DNA from: Halobacteroides halobius DSM 5150
GTDB taxonomy: Bacteria; Bacillota; Halanaerobiia; Halobacteroidales; Halobacteroidaceae
Reading direction: 5' to 3'
Assembly: GCF_000328625.1 (NCBI RefSeq)
Contig: NC_019978.1
Location: 1,736,001-1,800,000, forward strand
DNA length: 64,000 nt
Shown here: positions 7,868 through 17,391 of the stretch, in pieces
Position numbering within the stretch: the stretch's first letter is position 1
Layout: each line of letters starts with the position of its first letter
Notes under the pieces: model-generated
Databases searched by the model: none
Told to the model about the DNA's origin: nothing
What the model saw: the letters and a program-made list of their open reading frames with translations, nothing else
Translations under genes and position numbers: made by a program

Positions 7868-10180
7868 TTAATTAAAGAGATTATAGTATATCTCAATCTT
7901 ATCAATATCAGGAGCAAATCCAGTATCATTAAAAAAGGTTATTCTATTATCTCCAGCCTTTAATTGAACATCAACAACAGTTGTCTGATAATAGTTCCAA
8001 GCAAAAGTATTCCGGAAATAAATTCTTTTAGACCTATTTCCATTTACATTTATATCTGCAACTCTATCTACTATATCAACATTGTAATCATGACCACCTG
8101 ATTTTTCAGCATTTGCATAATAGATAACCAGCTTATAAGATCCAGCTTCAGAAACATTAACTTGATTAAAAGTCAAACTGTTTTCTGCTCCCTGTCCAAT
8201 CTTTCCTACATATTCTCCTCCTGAAGCATACTTATTCTTTTTTATTGTAGCTGTTCCTTTTAGAGTGTTAAGACTAGACTCTGCTTCATAGGCAGAGATA
8301 GGTCCTTCACCTTTTTTCAACTCAATAGTATCAACACTAGCATTACAACAAGAAATAAGATTGATACCAGCCTGCAAAAAGATAATTTGCTGATTACAAT
8401 TTGATTTTAAAACATAGTAACCATTCTCTTTAACACTTATAACAAAGCCTTGATCTTGATTAAAAGCATAACTTTCTATATAACCTACTCTAGAAAACTG
8501 ATTATTGGTATCTGATTCTAGATAAGTTAGATCAATCTTATCAAGATCTACTGATAAGTTGGCCCTACCTACTGTAGAGCTATACTTAGCAAAAGTAATA
8601 GTATGAACTCCTACTTCAAGATGAAGATTAATAGCTTTTTTACTTTCATACTGCCAATCAACAGTTGGAGGATACTTTGTTATATCCCACTTACCATCAT
8701 CAACCTTTAATAACTGTTGAGCAATATCTCCATGGCCATTACCATAGAAGATTTCCATTAAATAATCTCCTGTATCAGGCACTTCAACAGTAAATTCAAC
8801 TTGACTACCATCTCTAATAATATCTCCTACCCGTTGGCCTTGAGCATTATAATTCTGTTTAGGATTATAGAGATTAGTTCCATCAAAGTAGCCACCTGAA
8901 TAAATACTAGCATTAGTTACTTTAGCATCCTGTGCCTGATAACTAACCTGCCATGGTTTCTGATAATTAGCCCCTTCACTATTAGCAGTTATTATCATCT
9001 GATAGGCTGCTGATATATCCATATCAGGTATTCTTACTGTCAATTTGCCATCAACTACTTTGTAATTACCTGCTAATTCAAGATTTGGCCCGTTAGATGC
9101 TCCCTTTTGCCCTGTCCATTCAGTAGATAAAATCTTAACATGAACACTATCATTAAAATAAGATTTATTATCAATACCTTCAATAATTATATCAGTATCT
9201 CCATCTGCTCCACCTAGCAGTAAACGAGCTTCTTGTTTATCATTGTCTAAAGAGGCAATCCCTTGCAAGCCAGCTTCATTCTTCTGAGGAGGAGTTACTT
9301 CTACAGTATGGCCTGCCATATCACTATACCACTTATATAGCCACCATGCTCCAGTAACCTTATTATTCTCAACTGCTAAATCATCAAGCGCTCCAGCATC
9401 ATGCCAATAGGCCAGACAAGCATCAACCTTGCTATCTTCAAAACGGGCCAACCACTGAATCAATTGGCCTGGTACTGATAAATCCATAAAAGTTCCATAC
9501 TCATTAATAGCAATCTCCTTTGGGAAAATTCCTAAACTCTCTTCAATATTTCGATAAGAATTATAGTGCTTATACCAATCGACATAAAAATGAGTATCTA
9601 ATTCATGCCATGTAATAATATCAGGCAAACAATTATTTTCCTGAGCAAAAGCCATAAAATCAGCATAAAATTCTTCATTATAATAGGAATTATTCGAGCC
9701 AGCAATTAAAGCAGTAGCATCAATTTCCCGAATCTTCTCGTAAACTAATTTCCAATCATTAAAGAACTCTTCTTTTTTATCATCCATATTATACCAGATA
9801 GCATCAGGTTCATTAAAAGGAACATAGACAAATAGATCTCGGTGAGAATGGTTAGCCACTTGTTCAGCAATCTGCTCCACTTTAGTGAGGTAATCATCAA
9901 TGCCTTGATCTTCATAAGGCCAATCAGCATAAATATCTTGTAGATAAATCTGAATCTGCTTTCCACCAGCTTTCTTATACATCTCAGCAACTTCAAAAGC
10001 ATCGCCATTAGGATGTTGTAATCCTCCTGGTGGTTTTTGAGCAGCAACTTGTAAGTTTAAAGGAGCTAATACATTCTCACTAGGAATTCCATCATCACCT
10101 AAACCATATAAAAAGCCAATTCCTCCATATTTAATCTCTCCTGTATCTTTAGTTAAATCCACTTTTATTCTATCTTTCAT
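7868..10180 (-). CDS. Putative clan GH-A glycoside hydrolase with two C-terminal carbohydrate-binding modules
   Basis: This 770-residue protein has no signal peptide. The N-terminal barrel (about 15-310) carries NEPDAIW with E124 as candidate acid/base and INEYGT with E227 as candidate nucleophile; their spacing fits a retaining GH-A enzyme of GH39/GH5/GH30 type. A beta-sandwich linker domain follows (about 310-400). Two CBM6/CBM35-like jelly rolls come next (about 410-560 and 630-768), the second opening with ISAYEAESS and ending with DIDKIEIYY. Position inside the arabinan locus suggests an arabinose- or galactose-containing oligosaccharide as substrate. I cannot assign a numbered family. 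Binding modules on a cytoplasmic enzyme are unusual. The 205-bp palindromic repeat lies 34 bp upstream of its start. Confidence 0.7.
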   Translation of the reverse strand: MKDRIKVDLTKDTGEIKYGGIGFLYGLGDDGIPSENVLAPLNLQVAAQKPPGGLQHPNGDAFEVAEMYKKAGGKQIQIYLQDIYADWPYEDQGIDDYLTKVEQIAEQVANHSHRDLFVYVPFNEPDAIWYNMDDKKEEFFNDWKLVYEKIREIDATALIAGSNNSYYNEEFYADFMAFAQENNCLPDIITWHELDTHFYVDWYKHYNSYRNIEESLGIFPKEIAINEYGTFMDLSVPGQLIQWLARFEDSKVDACLAYWHDAGALDDLAVENNKVTGAWWLYKWYSDMAGHTVEVTPPQKNEAGLQGIASLDNDKQEARLLLGGADGDTDIIIEGIDNKSYFNDSVHVKILSTEWTGQKGASNGPNLELAGNYKVVDGKLTVRIPDMDISAAYQMIITANSEGANYQKPWQVSYQAQDAKVTNASIYSGGYFDGTNLYNPKQNYNAQGQRVGDIIRDGSQVEFTVEVPDTGDYLMEIFYGNGHGDIAQQLLKVDDGKWDITKYPPTVDWQYESKKAINLHLEVGVHTITFAKYSSTVGRANLSVDLDKIDLTYLESDTNNQFSRVGYIESYAFNQDQGFVISVKENGYYVLKSNCNQQIIFLQAGINLISCCNASVDTIELKKGEGPISAYEAESSLNTLKGTATIKKNKYASGGEYVGKIGQGAENSLTFNQVNVSEAGSYKLVIYYANAEKSGGHDYNVDIVDRVADINVNGNRSKRIYFRNTFAWNYYQTTVVDVQLKAGDNRITFFNDTGFAPDIDKIEIYYNLFN

Positions 10181-10213
10181 CAGACCACCTCATATTTGCA
10201 AATATTATTGAAA

Positions 10214-10494
10214 GTTGCACTTCTCAATGAAGCATTGTGTGGCTTTTTCCTTCAATAGTTTTTGTTCATTTCATTCCAGGTAAAATGAGATAAACCAAAT
10301 CATAGATTTACTTACTTATATCTATTTTACCTTTCATTCGAACCACATAAACAAAAACCATAAAATAGTCCAAAAACCTAACAATGCCTTTAATAATTGC
10401 TGGAGAGGGTTTCGCAACGACTCTTAAATTTTTCATTAATGAGTCTTAATAAACTGGAATAAAAATAAGGTTTGATTAGCTTAACCTTATTTTT
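10214..10494 (-). repeat. 205-bp near-palindromic element with trailing terminator stem, copy 1
   Basis: The core 10214-10418 folds onto itself. GTTGC pairs with GCAAC at the ends, GCATTGT with ACAATGC, TTTTTGTTCAT with a near-match, and AGGTAAAATGAGATA with TATCTATTTTACCT at the centre. The similarity to copy 2 continues past the core to a stem formed by AAAAATAAGGTT (10461-10472) and AACCTTATTTTT (10483-10494). That stem is a good intrinsic terminator for the GH43 lipoprotein gene upstream. The element could be a MITE-like insertion or a cis-acting leader. It ends 34 bp before the GH-A hydrolase start codon. Confidence 0.75.
10461..10494 (-). terminator. Intrinsic terminator-like stem in the GH43 to GH-A gap
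   Basis: A perfect 12-bp stem, AAAAATAAGGTT with AACCTTATTTTT around a 10-nt loop, ends in a U-rich arm on the minus strand. It would separate transcription of the GH43 lipoprotein gene from the hydrolase gene at 7868-10180. Confidence 0.6.
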
Positions 10495-10706
10495 ATGGAA
10501 GTAAGCTTAGACAAATTTTGAGAAATTCATCTAGTGAGAAATCCTCTTTCAGAAATCTAAAAGTTAAACTATATATCAATTAAGCCACATTTAATATTTA
10601 ATGGCTATAAGCTTAAACTAAATTAGACCTAAAGATTTATAAAATTACTTTTTCAAATAAAGCACTAAAGGCACTCACATTCCTTTTTAGCCTTCTATTC
10701 CATTGA

Positions 10707-10826
10707 TTAATTATTAAGGAAAATATGAGAATCAATAACACCAAGATAAATAGAATCACCAAAAGTTTTTTCTACTTCTTCTCTATATTCTTCATTTCCA
10801 TAATCTTTGACTAATATTCCCTTGCT
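10707..10826 (-). pseudogene. Decayed reading frame, possibly a transposase fragment
   Basis: A 39-codon open stretch between stops reads SKGILVKDYGNEEYREEVEK and then TFGDSIYLGVIDSHIFLNN. The pattern G-x-E-(E/D)-(Y/F)-x-x-x-V-E-K-x-x-G recalls the region before the last catalytic residue of IS4/IS5-type DDE transposases. It has no start codon or ribosome-binding site. The assignment is weak. Confidence 0.25.
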
Positions 10827-11027
10827 CTAAAAAGCCAAAACCAAATATGTTACATTATGTGATGAATTGATTTTTAAATTTTCTGTTTTTCCTGTCACTA
10901 GTAACTTATTAATAAAATCAACTCAAACTTTTATAAAACAAGAATTGTACTAATTGCAACCTAGAAATTTTGGTTTAATTATACAATTTATTGGTTTAAT
11001 TCATAACCTAGTGCTCATGATATAAAA

Positions 11028-12494
11028 TCATTGAGGAATCTGACTACCCCAAATTGTTACTCCTCGATTAGATAAAGCACTGAAAGTCATTACATTTTCT
11101 CTAAGACCTCTATCTAATTGTTCTAAAAATACTCCATAATAAGTATTACCATTAATGGTAATATTAACTGTATAATCACCAGTTAATTCCCAAGTTCCTT
11201 CAACTGCTCCTGTAATAGTACCATCAGCAAGCAACTTTATATTCTTAGATTTAGTTATATTCCCATCTCCAGTTTGAATATCCTTACCATGATTAACATA
11301 TTGATAAGTTCCTACTACATCGCTTTCAGAATATACTCCTACATCTTCTCCCGTATAATTATGCGGTGTAATTACGGGCCAATCTTTTGAATTCATTAAC
11401 ATTTGATGTGATCTAACCTGATGTCGCTCTCCATGACCAGGGTAACGAGTATGGAAGATAACATACATCTTGCGAGTTTCCTGATTGTAATATGCCGAAT
11501 TATGTCCTGGAGAAACATAACCAAGGTTTGATTCAAAAAATTTAAAGTTACCAATTAATTTAGCACCATATGGCTCAATTGCTTCATCATCAAAAGCAGT
11601 ATCTCCATGAGCATTAATCATATTATGACCTTGCACATCATAATAAGGACCATCAGGATTTTTAGAACGGGCAACCCTAATATTATAGCCTCCATCTGAA
11701 GCAAGTCCACCATAACTTAAGAAAAGGTAATAGTAATCTGTCTTCGGACTATATAACACATATGGAGCTTCAATTCTACTATGATTGCCACCTAATAATT
11801 TCTTACCATAACCCTGTCCGGGCTTAGGCATACCTGTTGCTGGATCGAGTTCTAAAATAAAGATTCCACCTGAATAAGAACCATATACCATCCATAGTTT
11901 TCCATTTTGATCATAGAAAACATCTGGATCAACTACATTAGGATGTTGAGTAGCATGGTATTCACCTGGATATATCTCTGCATCATAAAGAGTACCATCC
12001 TGATTATCTCCTGCCATTCCTGATTTTAATAACAACTGTTTCTTCTTATAAGGTCCATCCACATTATCTGCTACAGCTACACCAAGAGCAGATCTAGGAG
12101 AACTACCTTCACACATATTATAGTACATATAGTATTTACCGTCTGCTTTAAGTTGAATTACATCAGGGGCCCACAGAGTATTCGTCTGTGCCCAATTTAA
12201 TCCTGCACTTAACTTTTCGGTAACATTAGGAATAAGGGGATTATCATCATGAACATGACTACTGTATTGTTCCCAACTAATTAAATCATTAGAATAGCCG
12301 GAAGCTAAATGAGATCCAAAAACCCAATAGGTATTATTAACCTTAATTACTGAAGGATCATGGACAGCTGTACTATTAGGATCTAATGGTACCTTATTAG
12401 CTGTATCAGCATCATCTGAACTACAAGCTCCCAAAACACTAACTAAAGATAACAATAAACAAATAATCAATAACTTTTTGCTTAATAATTTCAT
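11028..12494 (-). CDS. Secreted GH43 endo-arabinanase, lipoprotein
   Basis: This 488-residue protein has a lipoprotein signal peptide whose lipobox LGAC puts the lipidated Cys at residue 24. The GH43 propeller (about 38-390) has candidate catalytic residues D46 (VHDP), D189 (VVDP) and E242 (IEAPY), and an intact WAPD at 108-111. A C-terminal lipocalin-like domain ends MTFSALSNRGVTIWGSQIP. It matches the endo-alpha-1,5-L-arabinanase group of Bacillus AbnB/AbnA type. Lipid anchoring, together with the porin gene nearby, suggests it works at the outer-membrane surface or in the periplasm. It resembles the two LamG-GH43 proteins encoded upstream but lacks the LamG module. Confidence 0.9.
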   Translation of the reverse strand: MKLLSKKLLIICLLLSLVSVLGACSSDDADTANKVPLDPNSTAVHDPSVIKVNNTYWVFGSHLASGYSNDLISWEQYSSHVHDDNPLIPNVTEKLSAGLNWAQTNTLWAPDVIQLKADGKYYMYYNMCEGSSPRSALGVAVADNVDGPYKKKQLLLKSGMAGDNQDGTLYDAEIYPGEYHATQHPNVVDPDVFYDQNGKLWMVYGSYSGGIFILELDPATGMPKPGQGYGKKLLGGNHSRIEAPYVLYSPKTDYYYLFLSYGGLASDGGYNIRVARSKNPDGPYYDVQGHNMINAHGDTAFDDEAIEPYGAKLIGNFKFFESNLGYVSPGHNSAYYNQETRKMYVIFHTRYPGHGERHQVRSHQMLMNSKDWPVITPHNYTGEDVGVYSESDVVGTYQYVNHGKDIQTGDGNITKSKNIKLLADGTITGAVEGTWELTGDYTVNITINGNTYYGVFLEQLDRGLRENVMTFSALSNRGVTIWGSQIPQ

Positions 12495-12691
12495 TAAATC
12501 ACTCCATAATGAAAAGTAATATAAGAATTCATACTGGGAGCAATTTTTATAAAATTTATAAAATTATACTTGCCTAACTTTGTAAATAACTAGTTAAAAT
12601 CAAAATCCAATACATCTTTAATATATGAATACAAATATTTTAACTTTGGTTTCAATTATCCAATATCAATTCTCATTTGTTCGCTTATCAA

Positions 12692-14872
12692 CTATTCTGG
12701 TATCTCACTACCCCAAATTGTCACACCTTGCTTAGATAAAGCACTGAATGTCATTACATTCTTCTTGAGTCCTCGGTCCCATTGTCTTAAAAATGCACCA
12801 TGATAAGTCTCACCATCGATAGTAATGTCAACTCTATAATCACCAGTCATTTTCCAACTACCTTCTACTGTTCCTGTAATAGAACCATCTGCATTTAATT
12901 CTATCTGCTTCGATAGATTAATATCTCCACCAGGATTACCAAAAGTAGCTTGAATATCATGGCCATGATTGACATACTGATAAGTTCCTACTACTTGCTC
13001 TGTAGAATACTTTCTAGCAGTTTCTCCTCGATAAACATGAGGAGTAATTACAGGCCAACCTCTAGAGTTCATCAGCATCTGATGTACCCTAACTTGGTGT
13101 CTTCCTCCTTGACCAGGGAAACGTGAGTGAAATACAATAAACATTTTATCTTTCACTTCATCATAAATAGCTGAATTATGCCCTGGAGAAAGATAACCTA
13201 ACTTAGACTCCTGAAATAAGAAGTTACCAATTAATTTAGCTCCATATGGCTCAACATTTTCCCAATTATGTCCATCAATATTATTTTTAACAAAGTCTAG
13301 CTCATTAGTTCCTTGATAATCACTATTGTGCCCTTGAGGGTCAGTATACGGACCATCGGGATTTTTAGAACGAAATACTCGAATATTATATCCCCCATCA
13401 GCAGCTAAAGTACCAAAAGATGCAAACAGATAATAGTACTCTGTCTTTGGATTATATTGAATATAAGATCCCTCTATTGGAGCTTCATTCCCACCTAAAA
13501 TTCTTTTACCATAACCTTGATTAGGATAAGGTTTACCAGTCTGAGAATTCATCTCTAAAATATGAATTCCACCAGCATAAGAACCATATGTCATCCATAA
13601 TTTACCTTGATCATCAAAAAATACCTGGGGATCAATAGCATTAGGATGAACATTAGGATTATGAGAGACACCTTCTAAGTTTTCTTGCCCTTTTTTATAT
13701 GATTTAATTACCAATCCTTGATATTCATAGGGCCCCTCAATATTTTTAGCTATAGCTAAACCAATAGCTGATCTTATTGCTCCCCAAGTACTAGAACTAA
13801 AGTATAGATAATATTTACCATTTAACTTGATTGGACTTTTGGCCCAAGTGCTTTCGGCATCTGGTTCAGGCCATTCTAAAGCCTCTTTTAACTCTTGTTC
13901 AGGATTAGGAATAATTGGATTATCTACAGTAAAACCATTTGAAATTGATTTCCAATGAATTAAATCATCTGACTTAGCAGCACCTAAATGAGAACCAAAG
14001 ACATAATATGTTCCTTTGTCTTTAATAATCATTGGATCATGAACTGCTACACTATTTTGATCTAACTTTACTCTAGTCTTATTTTCAACTGGCTCTTTAA
14101 TCTTTGAAGCACCCTTAGCCAATTTTTTTACTCTTTCTGCTTTAATAGCAGTATTATAAACTCGCAAATCATCTAGCTTACCTTTAAATGGAGCATCCCA
14201 GTAATTAACTCCTAAAGCAAATTTAGCTTTCTGATTAGTAAATACATCAGGAAATCCTGAGTCAGAAAATCTCTCTTGACCATTAAGATAAACTTTTACC
14301 TCACCTTGATTCACCGTAATTGTTAAATGACTCCACTGATCTGTTGGTATTTTCAAACCAGTTGGTGCATCATACCAGTCTTCTCCAGACCACAGCATTG
14401 TTTCTCCTATTGGCCCATTAGGTACAATACTAATCCATTGGTCTTTCGCTTGAGCCCCAAAGAAAGTCGTTGTAAATTGAGTAATCTTAGCAGGATTAAC
14501 CCACAAAGCAACACTATAAACATTACTAGAAATTAAACCATCTGGTAAACGAATCCCTGATTTACCATCAAAGATAGCAGCTTGATCTCGCTTCCCTTCC
14601 CCATAAGAGATTAAAGCACCATCTTCCTCATTAATTCTATTTCCAACTACTTTACCTTCTTCAAAATTACCAGTTTGATCTGTTAGCTCTTGATTAAATG
14701 TATAGTGGGCTACTAAACCTGAAGAATCTGCTTGCTCTGTTTCTATTGATTGTTCTGGTTGTTCCTGTTCTACTGGCCCAGAGGACATAGCTTTTACAAA
14801 AACAGGAGTTATGCTCAATACTAAAAGAAATGATAGCACTAATGATAAAAGTGTTTTTCTTTTCTGATTCAT
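12692..14872 (-). CDS. Secreted LamG-GH43 arabinanase-like protein, paralogue 1
   Basis: This 726-residue protein has a Sec signal peptide (about 1-28, likely cut after VKA). A LamG/concanavalin-like domain (about 50-250) comes next, then a GH43 propeller (about 268-620) and the C-terminal beta domain shared with the lipoprotein gene downstream. The candidate catalytic residues are D279 (VHDP), D414 (AIDP) and E467 (IEGSY). One oddity is that the usual WAPD/WAKD motif reads WAKSP at about 343-347, so an acidic residue conserved in its paralogue (WAKD) is Ser here. That may alter activity or substrate. The protein is very similar along its whole length to the product of 15229-17391, pointing to tandem duplication. 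The second palindromic repeat lies 47 bp upstream of its start. Confidence 0.87.
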   Translation of the reverse strand: MNQKRKTLLSLVLSFLLVLSITPVFVKAMSSGPVEQEQPEQSIETEQADSSGLVAHYTFNQELTDQTGNFEEGKVVGNRINEEDGALISYGEGKRDQAAIFDGKSGIRLPDGLISSNVYSVALWVNPAKITQFTTTFFGAQAKDQWISIVPNGPIGETMLWSGEDWYDAPTGLKIPTDQWSHLTITVNQGEVKVYLNGQERFSDSGFPDVFTNQKAKFALGVNYWDAPFKGKLDDLRVYNTAIKAERVKKLAKGASKIKEPVENKTRVKLDQNSVAVHDPMIIKDKGTYYVFGSHLGAAKSDDLIHWKSISNGFTVDNPIIPNPEQELKEALEWPEPDAESTWAKSPIKLNGKYYLYFSSSTWGAIRSAIGLAIAKNIEGPYEYQGLVIKSYKKGQENLEGVSHNPNVHPNAIDPQVFFDDQGKLWMTYGSYAGGIHILEMNSQTGKPYPNQGYGKRILGGNEAPIEGSYIQYNPKTEYYYLFASFGTLAADGGYNIRVFRSKNPDGPYTDPQGHNSDYQGTNELDFVKNNIDGHNWENVEPYGAKLIGNFLFQESKLGYLSPGHNSAIYDEVKDKMFIVFHSRFPGQGGRHQVRVHQMLMNSRGWPVITPHVYRGETARKYSTEQVVGTYQYVNHGHDIQATFGNPGGDINLSKQIELNADGSITGTVEGSWKMTGDYRVDITIDGETYHGAFLRQWDRGLKKNVMTFSALSKQGVTIWGSEIPE

Positions 14873-15228
14873 ATTTTGCCTCCTTTAGTTATAGTAAAGT
14901 GTAACTTAATTGATATATAGTTGCATTTCTCAATCAGGCATTGTGGGGCTTTTTCCTTAAATAATTTTTGTTCATTTCATTCCAGGTAAAATGAGATAAA
15001 CCAAATCATAGATTTGCTTATTCATATCTATTTTACCTTTCATTCAAAGCATATGAACAAAAACTATAAGACAGTCCAAAAACCCCATAATACCTTTAGT
15101 AATTGCTGGAGAGGGTTTCGCAACGACTCCTAAATTTTTCATTAATGAGTCTTAGTGAACTGGAATAAAAATAAGGTTTGGGTTAGCTAATTATCTATTT
15201 TTGATTAGCTTAACCTTATATATATCAA
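14873..15228. other. 356-bp gap filled by palindromic repeat copy 2
   Basis: Nearly all of this gap is the repeat element described at 14920-15218. The remaining 47 bp before the gene start hold the ribosome-binding site AAAGGAGG and no clear promoter. Confidence 0.6.
14920..15218 (-). repeat. 205-bp near-palindromic element with trailing stem, copy 2
   Basis: The core 14920-15124 has exactly the length of copy 1 (205 bp) and differs from it by scattered substitutions only. Near the end, copy 2 carries about 23 bp absent from copy 1 between AAGGTTT and GATTAGCTTAACCTTA. Its flanks are themselves inverted: TTAATTGATATATA before it and TATATATCAATTA after it. It sits between the two LamG-GH43 paralogues and close to the start codon of the downstream one. 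Confidence 0.75.
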
Positions 15229-17391
15229 TTATTTCTGAGGAAGCTGACTACCCCAGATTGTAATACCTTGGTCTGATAAAGCACTGAATGTCATTACATT
15301 TTTCTTAAGTCCTCGATCCCATTGTCTTAAAAATGCACCATGATAAGTCTCACCATCAATAGTGATAGCAACTCTATAATCACCAGTCAGTTTCCACGTT
15401 CCTTTTACTGCTCCTGTAATAGAACCATCTGCATTTAATTCTATTTTCTTCGATAGATTAATGTCTCCACCAGGATTACCAAATGTTGCTTGAATATCAT
15501 GACCATGGTTTATATATTGATAAGTACCTACTACTTCTTTTGTAGAATATGCTTTTACAGTTTCGCCATTATAACGGTGAGGAGTAATTACGGGCCAACC
15601 TCTAGAGTTCATCAGCATCTGATGTACCCTAACTTGATGAATTGATCCATGTCCAGGAAAACGAGTATGGAAAATAATATACATTTTACCACTTTGTTTA
15701 TCATAATAAGTTGTATTGTGTCCAGGAGATAGATAACCTAAATTAGACTCAGTAAATACAAAATTACCAATTAATTTAGCTCCATAAGGTTCAGCGTTAT
15801 TCCAGTTTCTACCATTAATATCCTTCTTTATAAATTTAGTCATATTATGACCCTGAGGATCAAAATAAGGTCCATCAGGATTTTTAGAACGAGCCACTCG
15901 AATATTATACCCGCCATCTGCAGCTAAAGTACCAAAAGAAAGAAATAAATAATAGTATTCTGTCTGTGGGTTATATCGAATATGAGGTCCTTCCATAGGA
16001 GCATGATTACCACCAGCGATCCTCTTACCATAGCCTTGATTTGGTTTAGGATATCCTGTGTTTGGATTCATCTCTAAAATGTACATTCCACCAGAATAAG
16101 AACCATATACCATCCATAACTTACCTTGAGCATCAAAAAAAAGATGAGGATCAATCACACCTGGATGAATAGAATTATCAAATGGCTTTCCCTTAAGTTC
16201 TTTACTTGGCTCTCCATTTTCATACTTTTTAAGCAATATACCTTTGTACTTATAAGGACCTTCTATATTATTAGATGTAGCTAAAGCAATGGCTGATCTG
16301 GCAGATTCCCAATGAGCAGTACTAAAATATAAATAATATTTATCATTTAATTTAATAACATCCTTAGCCCAAGTGGTTTCTGCATCTGGATTTGGCCACT
16401 CTAAAGCTTCTTTTAATTCTACTTCTGGGTTAGGAATTATCGGATTATCCTTACTCCAACCATTTCCCACCTGTTGCCAATTGATTAAATCTTCTGATTT
16501 AGCTACGCCTAAATGAGAACCAAATATATAATATTTTCCATTTACTTTTATTACTGAAGGGTCATGAACTGATACATCATTATTATCTAACTTTACTACA
16601 ATATCATCTTTAGCTGATTCTTTTATTTTAAGGGCTCCTTTAGCAAGATGCTTTATTTTTTCAACTGTAATAGCACTATCATAAATCTGTAAATCATCCA
16701 TCTTACCTTTAAAAGGAGCGTCCCAATAATTAACTCCTAGAGCAAATTTAGCTTTATCATTAGTAAAGACATCAGGAAACCCTGAATCAGAAAATCTCTT
16801 CTTTCCATTAACATACACTTTTACTTTACCTTGATTAACAGTAATTGTTAAATGACTCCACTGGTCTGTTGGAATTTTCAAACCAGTTGGTGCATCATAC
16901 CACTTTTCTCCTGACCACAGCATTGTTTCTCCTATTGGCCCTTTGGGTACAATACTGATCCACTGATCCTTTGCTTGAGCCCCAAAAAAAGTAGTAGTAA
17001 ATTGTGTGATTTCTTTAGGATTTAACCACAATGCTACACTATAAGTATTATCTTTAATTAAACCATCTGGTAAACGGACTCCAGATTGACCATTAAAAAC
17101 AACAGACTTACCTCGCATTCCTTGAGCATAAGAAATTGAACCACCATCTTTCTTATTGATACGATTGCCAACAACCTGACCTTTTTCAAAATTACTAGTT
17201 TTATCCATTAAGTTCTGATTAAAAGTATAATGAGCTACTAGACTTGTTGCATCTGTTTGTTTAGTCTGCTCTGATTCTTCTGATTGTTCCACTGGCCCAG
17301 AGGACATTGCATTTACAAAAACAGGAACTACAGTTATTAATAATAGCATTAATACTGTCATTGACACAGTAAAATTTAATTTCTTCTTCAT
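15229..17391 (-). CDS. Secreted LamG-GH43 arabinanase-like protein, paralogue 2
   Basis: This 720-residue protein has the same layout as the downstream paralogue: Sec signal (about 1-28, cut after VNA), LamG domain (about 48-248), GH43 propeller (about 266-610) and C-terminal beta domain ending GITIWGSQLPQK. The candidate catalytic residues are D277 (VHDP), D414 (VIDP) and E467 (MEGPH), and WAKD is intact at 341-344. It is likely to act on arabinan outside the cytoplasm, with the LamG module helping to bind polysaccharide. It may be cotranscribed with the porin gene, 86 bp upstream across a partial terminator. Confidence 0.88.
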   Translation of the reverse strand: MKKKLNFTVSMTVLMLLLITVVPVFVNAMSSGPVEQSEESEQTKQTDATSLVAHYTFNQNLMDKTSNFEKGQVVGNRINKKDGGSISYAQGMRGKSVVFNGQSGVRLPDGLIKDNTYSVALWLNPKEITQFTTTFFGAQAKDQWISIVPKGPIGETMLWSGEKWYDAPTGLKIPTDQWSHLTITVNQGKVKVYVNGKKRFSDSGFPDVFTNDKAKFALGVNYWDAPFKGKMDDLQIYDSAITVEKIKHLAKGALKIKESAKDDIVVKLDNNDVSVHDPSVIKVNGKYYIFGSHLGVAKSEDLINWQQVGNGWSKDNPIIPNPEVELKEALEWPNPDAETTWAKDVIKLNDKYYLYFSTAHWESARSAIALATSNNIEGPYKYKGILLKKYENGEPSKELKGKPFDNSIHPGVIDPHLFFDAQGKLWMVYGSYSGGMYILEMNPNTGYPKPNQGYGKRIAGGNHAPMEGPHIRYNPQTEYYYLFLSFGTLAADGGYNIRVARSKNPDGPYFDPQGHNMTKFIKKDINGRNWNNAEPYGAKLIGNFVFTESNLGYLSPGHNTTYYDKQSGKMYIIFHTRFPGHGSIHQVRVHQMLMNSRGWPVITPHRYNGETVKAYSTKEVVGTYQYINHGHDIQATFGNPGGDINLSKKIELNADGSITGAVKGTWKLTGDYRVAITIDGETYHGAFLRQWDRGLKKNVMTFSALSDQGITIWGSQLPQK

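Follow-up and report, generated by a model that had tools for sequence, protein, structure and literature searches.

The window (the whole stretch of 64,000 nucleotides of the Halobacteroides halobius DSM 5150 chromosome that was analysed) contains two similar palindromic segments, each lying ahead of a gene that the first-pass annotation took for a hydrolase gene, and the question that they raise is whether they are MITE-like insertions or form a structured leader RNA through which these genes are controlled. Both cores (10214-10418 and 14920-15124) are present, are 90% identical and, as first described, each closely precede a minus-strand start (10180 and 14872, respectively). When all copies were aligned with their flanks, the 205-bp core proved to be only the right-hand part of a unit of ~400 bp, which starts with ATTGATATATAGT and ends with ACTATATATCAAT, a perfect 13-bp inverted repeat. 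Being too short for a transposase gene, the unit contains none. We consider, with a probability of roughly 0.82, that the repeat represents a lineage-specific, non-coding, MITE-like mobile family of ~400 bp, in which 13-bp terminal inverted repeats enclose two long imperfect palindromic arms. Of the two options first offered it is the insertion that is favoured, on the grounds of dispersed copies, terminal inverted repeats, TA flanks and lineage restriction; a leader RNA dedicated to these genes is not supported, as unrelated downstream genes, both orientations, decayed forms and a lack of covariation all tell against it.

The features of the two window copies and their neighbours are collected in Table 1. 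Copy 1 has 31 differences from the consensus, which makes it the most diverged among the full copies; ~23 bp of the loop of arm 1 are deleted and the right terminal repeat has decayed. Copy 2 is intact in its right part, but its left arm has a deletion of about 80 bp that runs from the terminal repeat to AAGGTTAAGC. The LamG-GH43 protein predicted from the gene following copy 2 was confirmed, but for the gene following copy 1 Pfam gave CBM35/CBM6 only and no GH-A domain. In this part of the window (11028-17391) there are three tandem GH43 genes, all on the minus strand and two of them with LamG, and the repeat lies between both LamG-GH43 paralogues.

Table 1. Positions in the window of the two repeat copies, their parts and the adjoining genes
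Feature	Position	Strand	Basis or remark
Copy 1 of the repeat, 378 bp	10203..10580	(-)	alignment, boundaries, blastn of consensus vs window
Copy 1, left terminal inverted repeat ATTGATATATAGT	10568..10580	(-)	TA before it on minus strand
Copy 1, arm 1 (P2)	10395..10557	(-)	consensus fold columns 24-209, column arithmetic on alignment A1, inverted repeats
Copy 1, arm 2 (P3), long imperfect hairpin within 205-bp core	10230..10389	(-)	consensus fold columns 215-374; covariance-model match at genome 1746230-1746396
Copy 2 of the repeat, about 322 bp	14909..15230	(-)	alignment, blastn of consensus vs window, fold z -5.8
Copy 2, right terminal inverted repeat ACTATATATCAAT	14909..14921	(-)	followed by TA on minus strand
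Copy 2, arm 2 (P3)	14936..15095	(-)	covariance-model match at genome 1750936-1751102, consensus fold
Copy 2, left terminal repeat remnant	15220..15230	(-)	sequence; adjoins TAA stop of upstream gene
Gene downstream of copy 1, 770 aa, C-terminal CBM35/CBM6 domain	7868..10180	(-)	neighbour, outside element
Gene downstream of copy 2, LamG, GH43, GH43_C	12692..14872	(-)	neighbour
Gene upstream of copy 2, LamG, GH43, GH43_C paralogue	15229..17391	(-)	TAA stop overlaps element boundary

A census of the single-contig chromosome (2,649,255 bp) excluded a unique pair, since ~14 copies or pieces are scattered through it. The whole 205-bp core is kept in 12 copies (10 near full length and the two window copies with their deletions), a centrally deleted copy at about 977978-978326 belongs to the his operon, and a 3' fragment is found at 1059265-1059335. 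Direct reading of the sequence added a decayed version of ~100 bp at 2095575-2095674, beside an apparent thrS, and further fragments near 320983, 2043199, 2022332 and 2487622. A covariance model of arm 2 recovered the same 13 loci in this genome and no others. Among 60 relatives, a set from which the same genus is absent, there was no credible match by DNA search or by the arm 2 covariance model, and the BLASTN-type count proposed at the outset gives multiple dispersed copies in the host genome and no credible one in these relatives; weak 28-bp matches in two class-level relatives (DNA search) were discarded as chance. The exact 25-mer core is absent from GTDB contigs and viral contigs, distant searches of plasmid and phage sets gave no match, and searches of the published literature did not find the repeat described. 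The family is apparently restricted to one lineage and previously undescribed.

The copies are intergenic or at gene ends, mainly between co-directional genes. Their tie to hydrolase genes is incidental: besides the genes for the CBM35 and LamG-GH43 proteins in the window, the genes downstream include thiC (after thiD), one of O-acetylhomoserine sulfhydrylase type, hydE, bioB (after queG) and lpxC, and the centrally deleted copy sits within the his operon. These downstream genes have no common pathway, which argues against a dedicated leader RNA. Nine of the 12 core-bearing copies are in sense orientation directly before a start codon, which speaks for such a leader, but reversed copies exist (L014, L020, L021 and L022, a set that includes the his-operon copy and the 3' fragment), and on these counts no orientation bias can be claimed. 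Two further observations concern individual loci. A TPP riboswitch (RF00059, L010:610-713) lies upstream of the thi cluster that carries one copy. At L020 one copy is adjoined, from about 2141, by the sequence GGACCAGCCTCACGGCTGGGACC, which has ~15 further occurrences in the genome and is followed there by an ORF that by eye resembles a group II intron reverse transcriptase.

Two of the operon gaps were compared with those of relatives. The HydG-HydE gap is 646 nt in this genome, the element and an 82-aa ORF included, against 18, 18 and 28 nt in three order- and class-level relatives, and it is intermediate in same-family relatives (124 and 270 nt); a HydE search of GTDB contigs returned distant relatives only, and these were left out of the comparison. 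The thiD-thiC gap of relative G002 (L104:1058-1506, 449 nt) has its own end-paired palindromic element (TAGTAATAAAGC...GCTTTATTACTA, MFE -166.9) with no similarity to the repeat studied here, and a short part of this element is found again in the HydG-HydE gap of G002, before hydE (L080). An unrelated palindrome in the same thiD-thiC gap suggests that such gaps are tolerant of different palindromes and, judging by the two junctions examined, operon gaps in this bacterial family seem to collect unrelated palindromic repeats.

The consensus is predicted to fold as a three-way junction that is closed by pairing of the terminal repeats (columns 5-22 with 380-397) and from which two long arms extend (columns as in Table 1). 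With an MFE of -135.8 kcal/mol it is far more stable than shuffled sequences (mean -74.2, z -11.1), and the antisense strand folds equally well (-132.8). The folding noticed in the cores was upheld for the full window copies, with z values of -5.4 for copy 1 and -5.8 for copy 2 relative to shuffles. A very stable conserved fold speaks for a leader RNA; against one, terminal pairing is lost in copy 1 and most of one arm in copy 2, and Rfam covariance models gave no match, either around the window copies (threshold E = 1) or over the element in L009, L010 and L016. The terminator-like stem into which the similarity was said to continue does exist (about 10458-10496) and is the tip of arm 1. A terminator scan gave no terminator-like sites, and in a promoter scan promoter-like sites were at or below the shuffle mean.

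Substitutions were analysed in alignment A1 (11 copies, columns 14-388), that is in paralogous copies within one genome. Changes are 2.4-fold rarer in stems (38 at 266 paired sites versus 37 at 109 unpaired sites); the rate is lower in stems than in loops for each of the four base classes, and when the structure was shifted circularly, all 374 shifts gave a weaker contrast. This lower rate counts against the mobile family that we favour, as simple post-insertion drift cannot account for it, and is a point for either a leader RNA or the co-option of some copies. The first-pass annotation had claimed that changes between the copies tend to leave the stems pairable, and this is not above chance: among stem transitions pair-keeping changes occur at 13 of 137 possible sites and pair-breaking changes at 10 of 129 (p=0.67), and compensatory (two-sided) change is limited to a single one of the 142 pairs. 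The covarying stems for which it had proposed a search are not seen among the paralogous copies, covariation as proof of RNA function is rejected, and the low rate of change in stems does not bear the mark of preserved pairing. Possible causes are biased mutation or conversion in palindromes and a constraint that acts on the mobile form.

The flanks of the copies do not align, i.e. the flanking sequences are unrelated. TA stands before the left end in 9 and after the right end in 11 of the 12 readable copies, counted by eye and allowing two offsets (an edge shift of one base) that were chosen after inspection of the data, for which the background rate is 0.21 (0.11 per position). TA at the flanks fits a TA-target transposase but does not amount to proof of a target-site duplication, a point against the mobile family. 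Genes for DDE_3 and DDE_Tnp_1_2 were not found in the genome, and with no DDE_3 match the IS630 transposase partner that marks RUP-like MITEs is missing. The DDE_Tnp_1 loci are without element ends; the best matches to the 20-base ends were 13-16 of 20, which we rated as chance level without a formal null. The suggested search for parent IS ends thus found none that match among these three families, and for this reason the repeat is labelled MITE-like. The parent transposase is either missing from the genome or outside the DDE_3, DDE_Tnp_1_2 and DDE_Tnp_1 families. Shared ends with a host IS are not strictly defining for a MITE, whose parent may be lost, and other features of MITEs are present: the terminal inverted repeats ATTGATATATAGT and ACTATATATCAAT on multiple dispersed copies, unrelated flanks and no internal transposase gene. 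At 400 bp the repeat exceeds the length of most known bacterial MITEs; like the failure to find parent ends, this counts against the reading.

The positions, number and limits of the copies, their inverted ends, their decayed derivatives and their predicted fold are established above; for the mechanism of transposition, transcription and effect on expression we infer the following course. The spread of the repeat was most likely by cut-and-paste transposition, driven in trans and directed to a TA-type target, the mobilizing transposase having probably since been lost from the genome, and copies would persist chiefly in intercistronic gaps, where they do little harm. As either strand is predicted to fold as the three-way junction, a copy in a transcribed host operon would give the mRNA a strong fold ahead of a gene or between two, and such a fold could alter processing or stability of the transcript. 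Elements of the ERIC, Correia and BOX families are described as acting on mRNA (PMC3049150, PMC10969869), and by analogy with these an effect of the present repeat is plausible.

Several known families share part of this architecture. BOX elements of Streptococcus pneumoniae (PMC3049150) are likewise modular and intergenic, with terminal repeats that pair in the transcript and size variants arising via internal modules, but in BOX the boxB modules are repeated and ISSpn2 has been proposed as the parent, whereas the present repeat has single arms and no parent was found; the likeness is one of architecture and no sequence relationship is claimed. ERIC is also a long imperfect non-coding palindrome in transcribed intergenic gaps with TA at its termini, but is about 127 bp long, forms one hairpin and belongs to enterobacteria, in contrast to a three-way junction of 400 bp. 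RUP of the pneumococcus (mobilized by IS630-Spn1; PMC2229807) resembles the repeat in its terminal inverted repeats, TA-containing target sites and non-autonomous nature, and differs in having a known IS630 partner, where this genome has no DDE_3 match. The folded transcript of CIR of Caulobacter (PMC2229807) similarly consists of two long arms and a linker, but is without 5'-3' end pairing, whereas the present repeat is closed by its terminal repeats. QMITE2 of Coxiella burnetii (PMC10969869) is a MITE whose transcript likewise folds very stably, and differs in its 7-9 bp direct repeats, terminal repeats of 23-29 bp and smaller core.

Among alternatives, it is conceivable, if unlikely, that some copies of a mobile repeat have been co-opted by their host operons for the processing or stability of RNA or as promoters, which would be compatible with the MITE-like family but would add a function to it. 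Positions in or before operons (e.g. thiD-thiC and lpxC), the scarcity of changes in stems and the precedents of ERIC, Correia and BOX (PMC3049150, PMC10969869) point in this direction, but the promoter and terminator scans and the lack of a pairing-preserving bias do not. We hold it equally doubtful that the repeat is a mobile structured RNA or DNA module in which the three-way junction itself is selected, as a transposition substrate or a co-opted mRNA processing signal, with each genus of this bacterial family evolving its own repeats that fill the same operon gaps. A structured leader RNA that specifically regulates the genes downstream, in the manner of a riboswitch or by processing, has the fold, the mostly sense position before start codons and the low rate of stem change in its favour, but we regard it as highly improbable in the face of the unrelated downstream genes, the reversed and truncated copies and the stem substitutions. 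Mobilization as single-stranded DNA, as for repeats of REP/RAYT or IS200/IS605 type, would suit the large palindromic arms and the absence of a provable target duplication, but with perfect 13-bp terminal inverted repeats and TA on both flanks in most copies there is hardly any likelihood of it.

As a MITE-like family the repeat adds an apparently undescribed group of unusually large, three-armed elements to those already known, and it illustrates that regulatory-looking palindromes before genes can be mobile debris. The thiD-thiC gap, with unrelated palindromes in different genera, offers a natural test of the tolerance of operons for structured intercistronic RNA.
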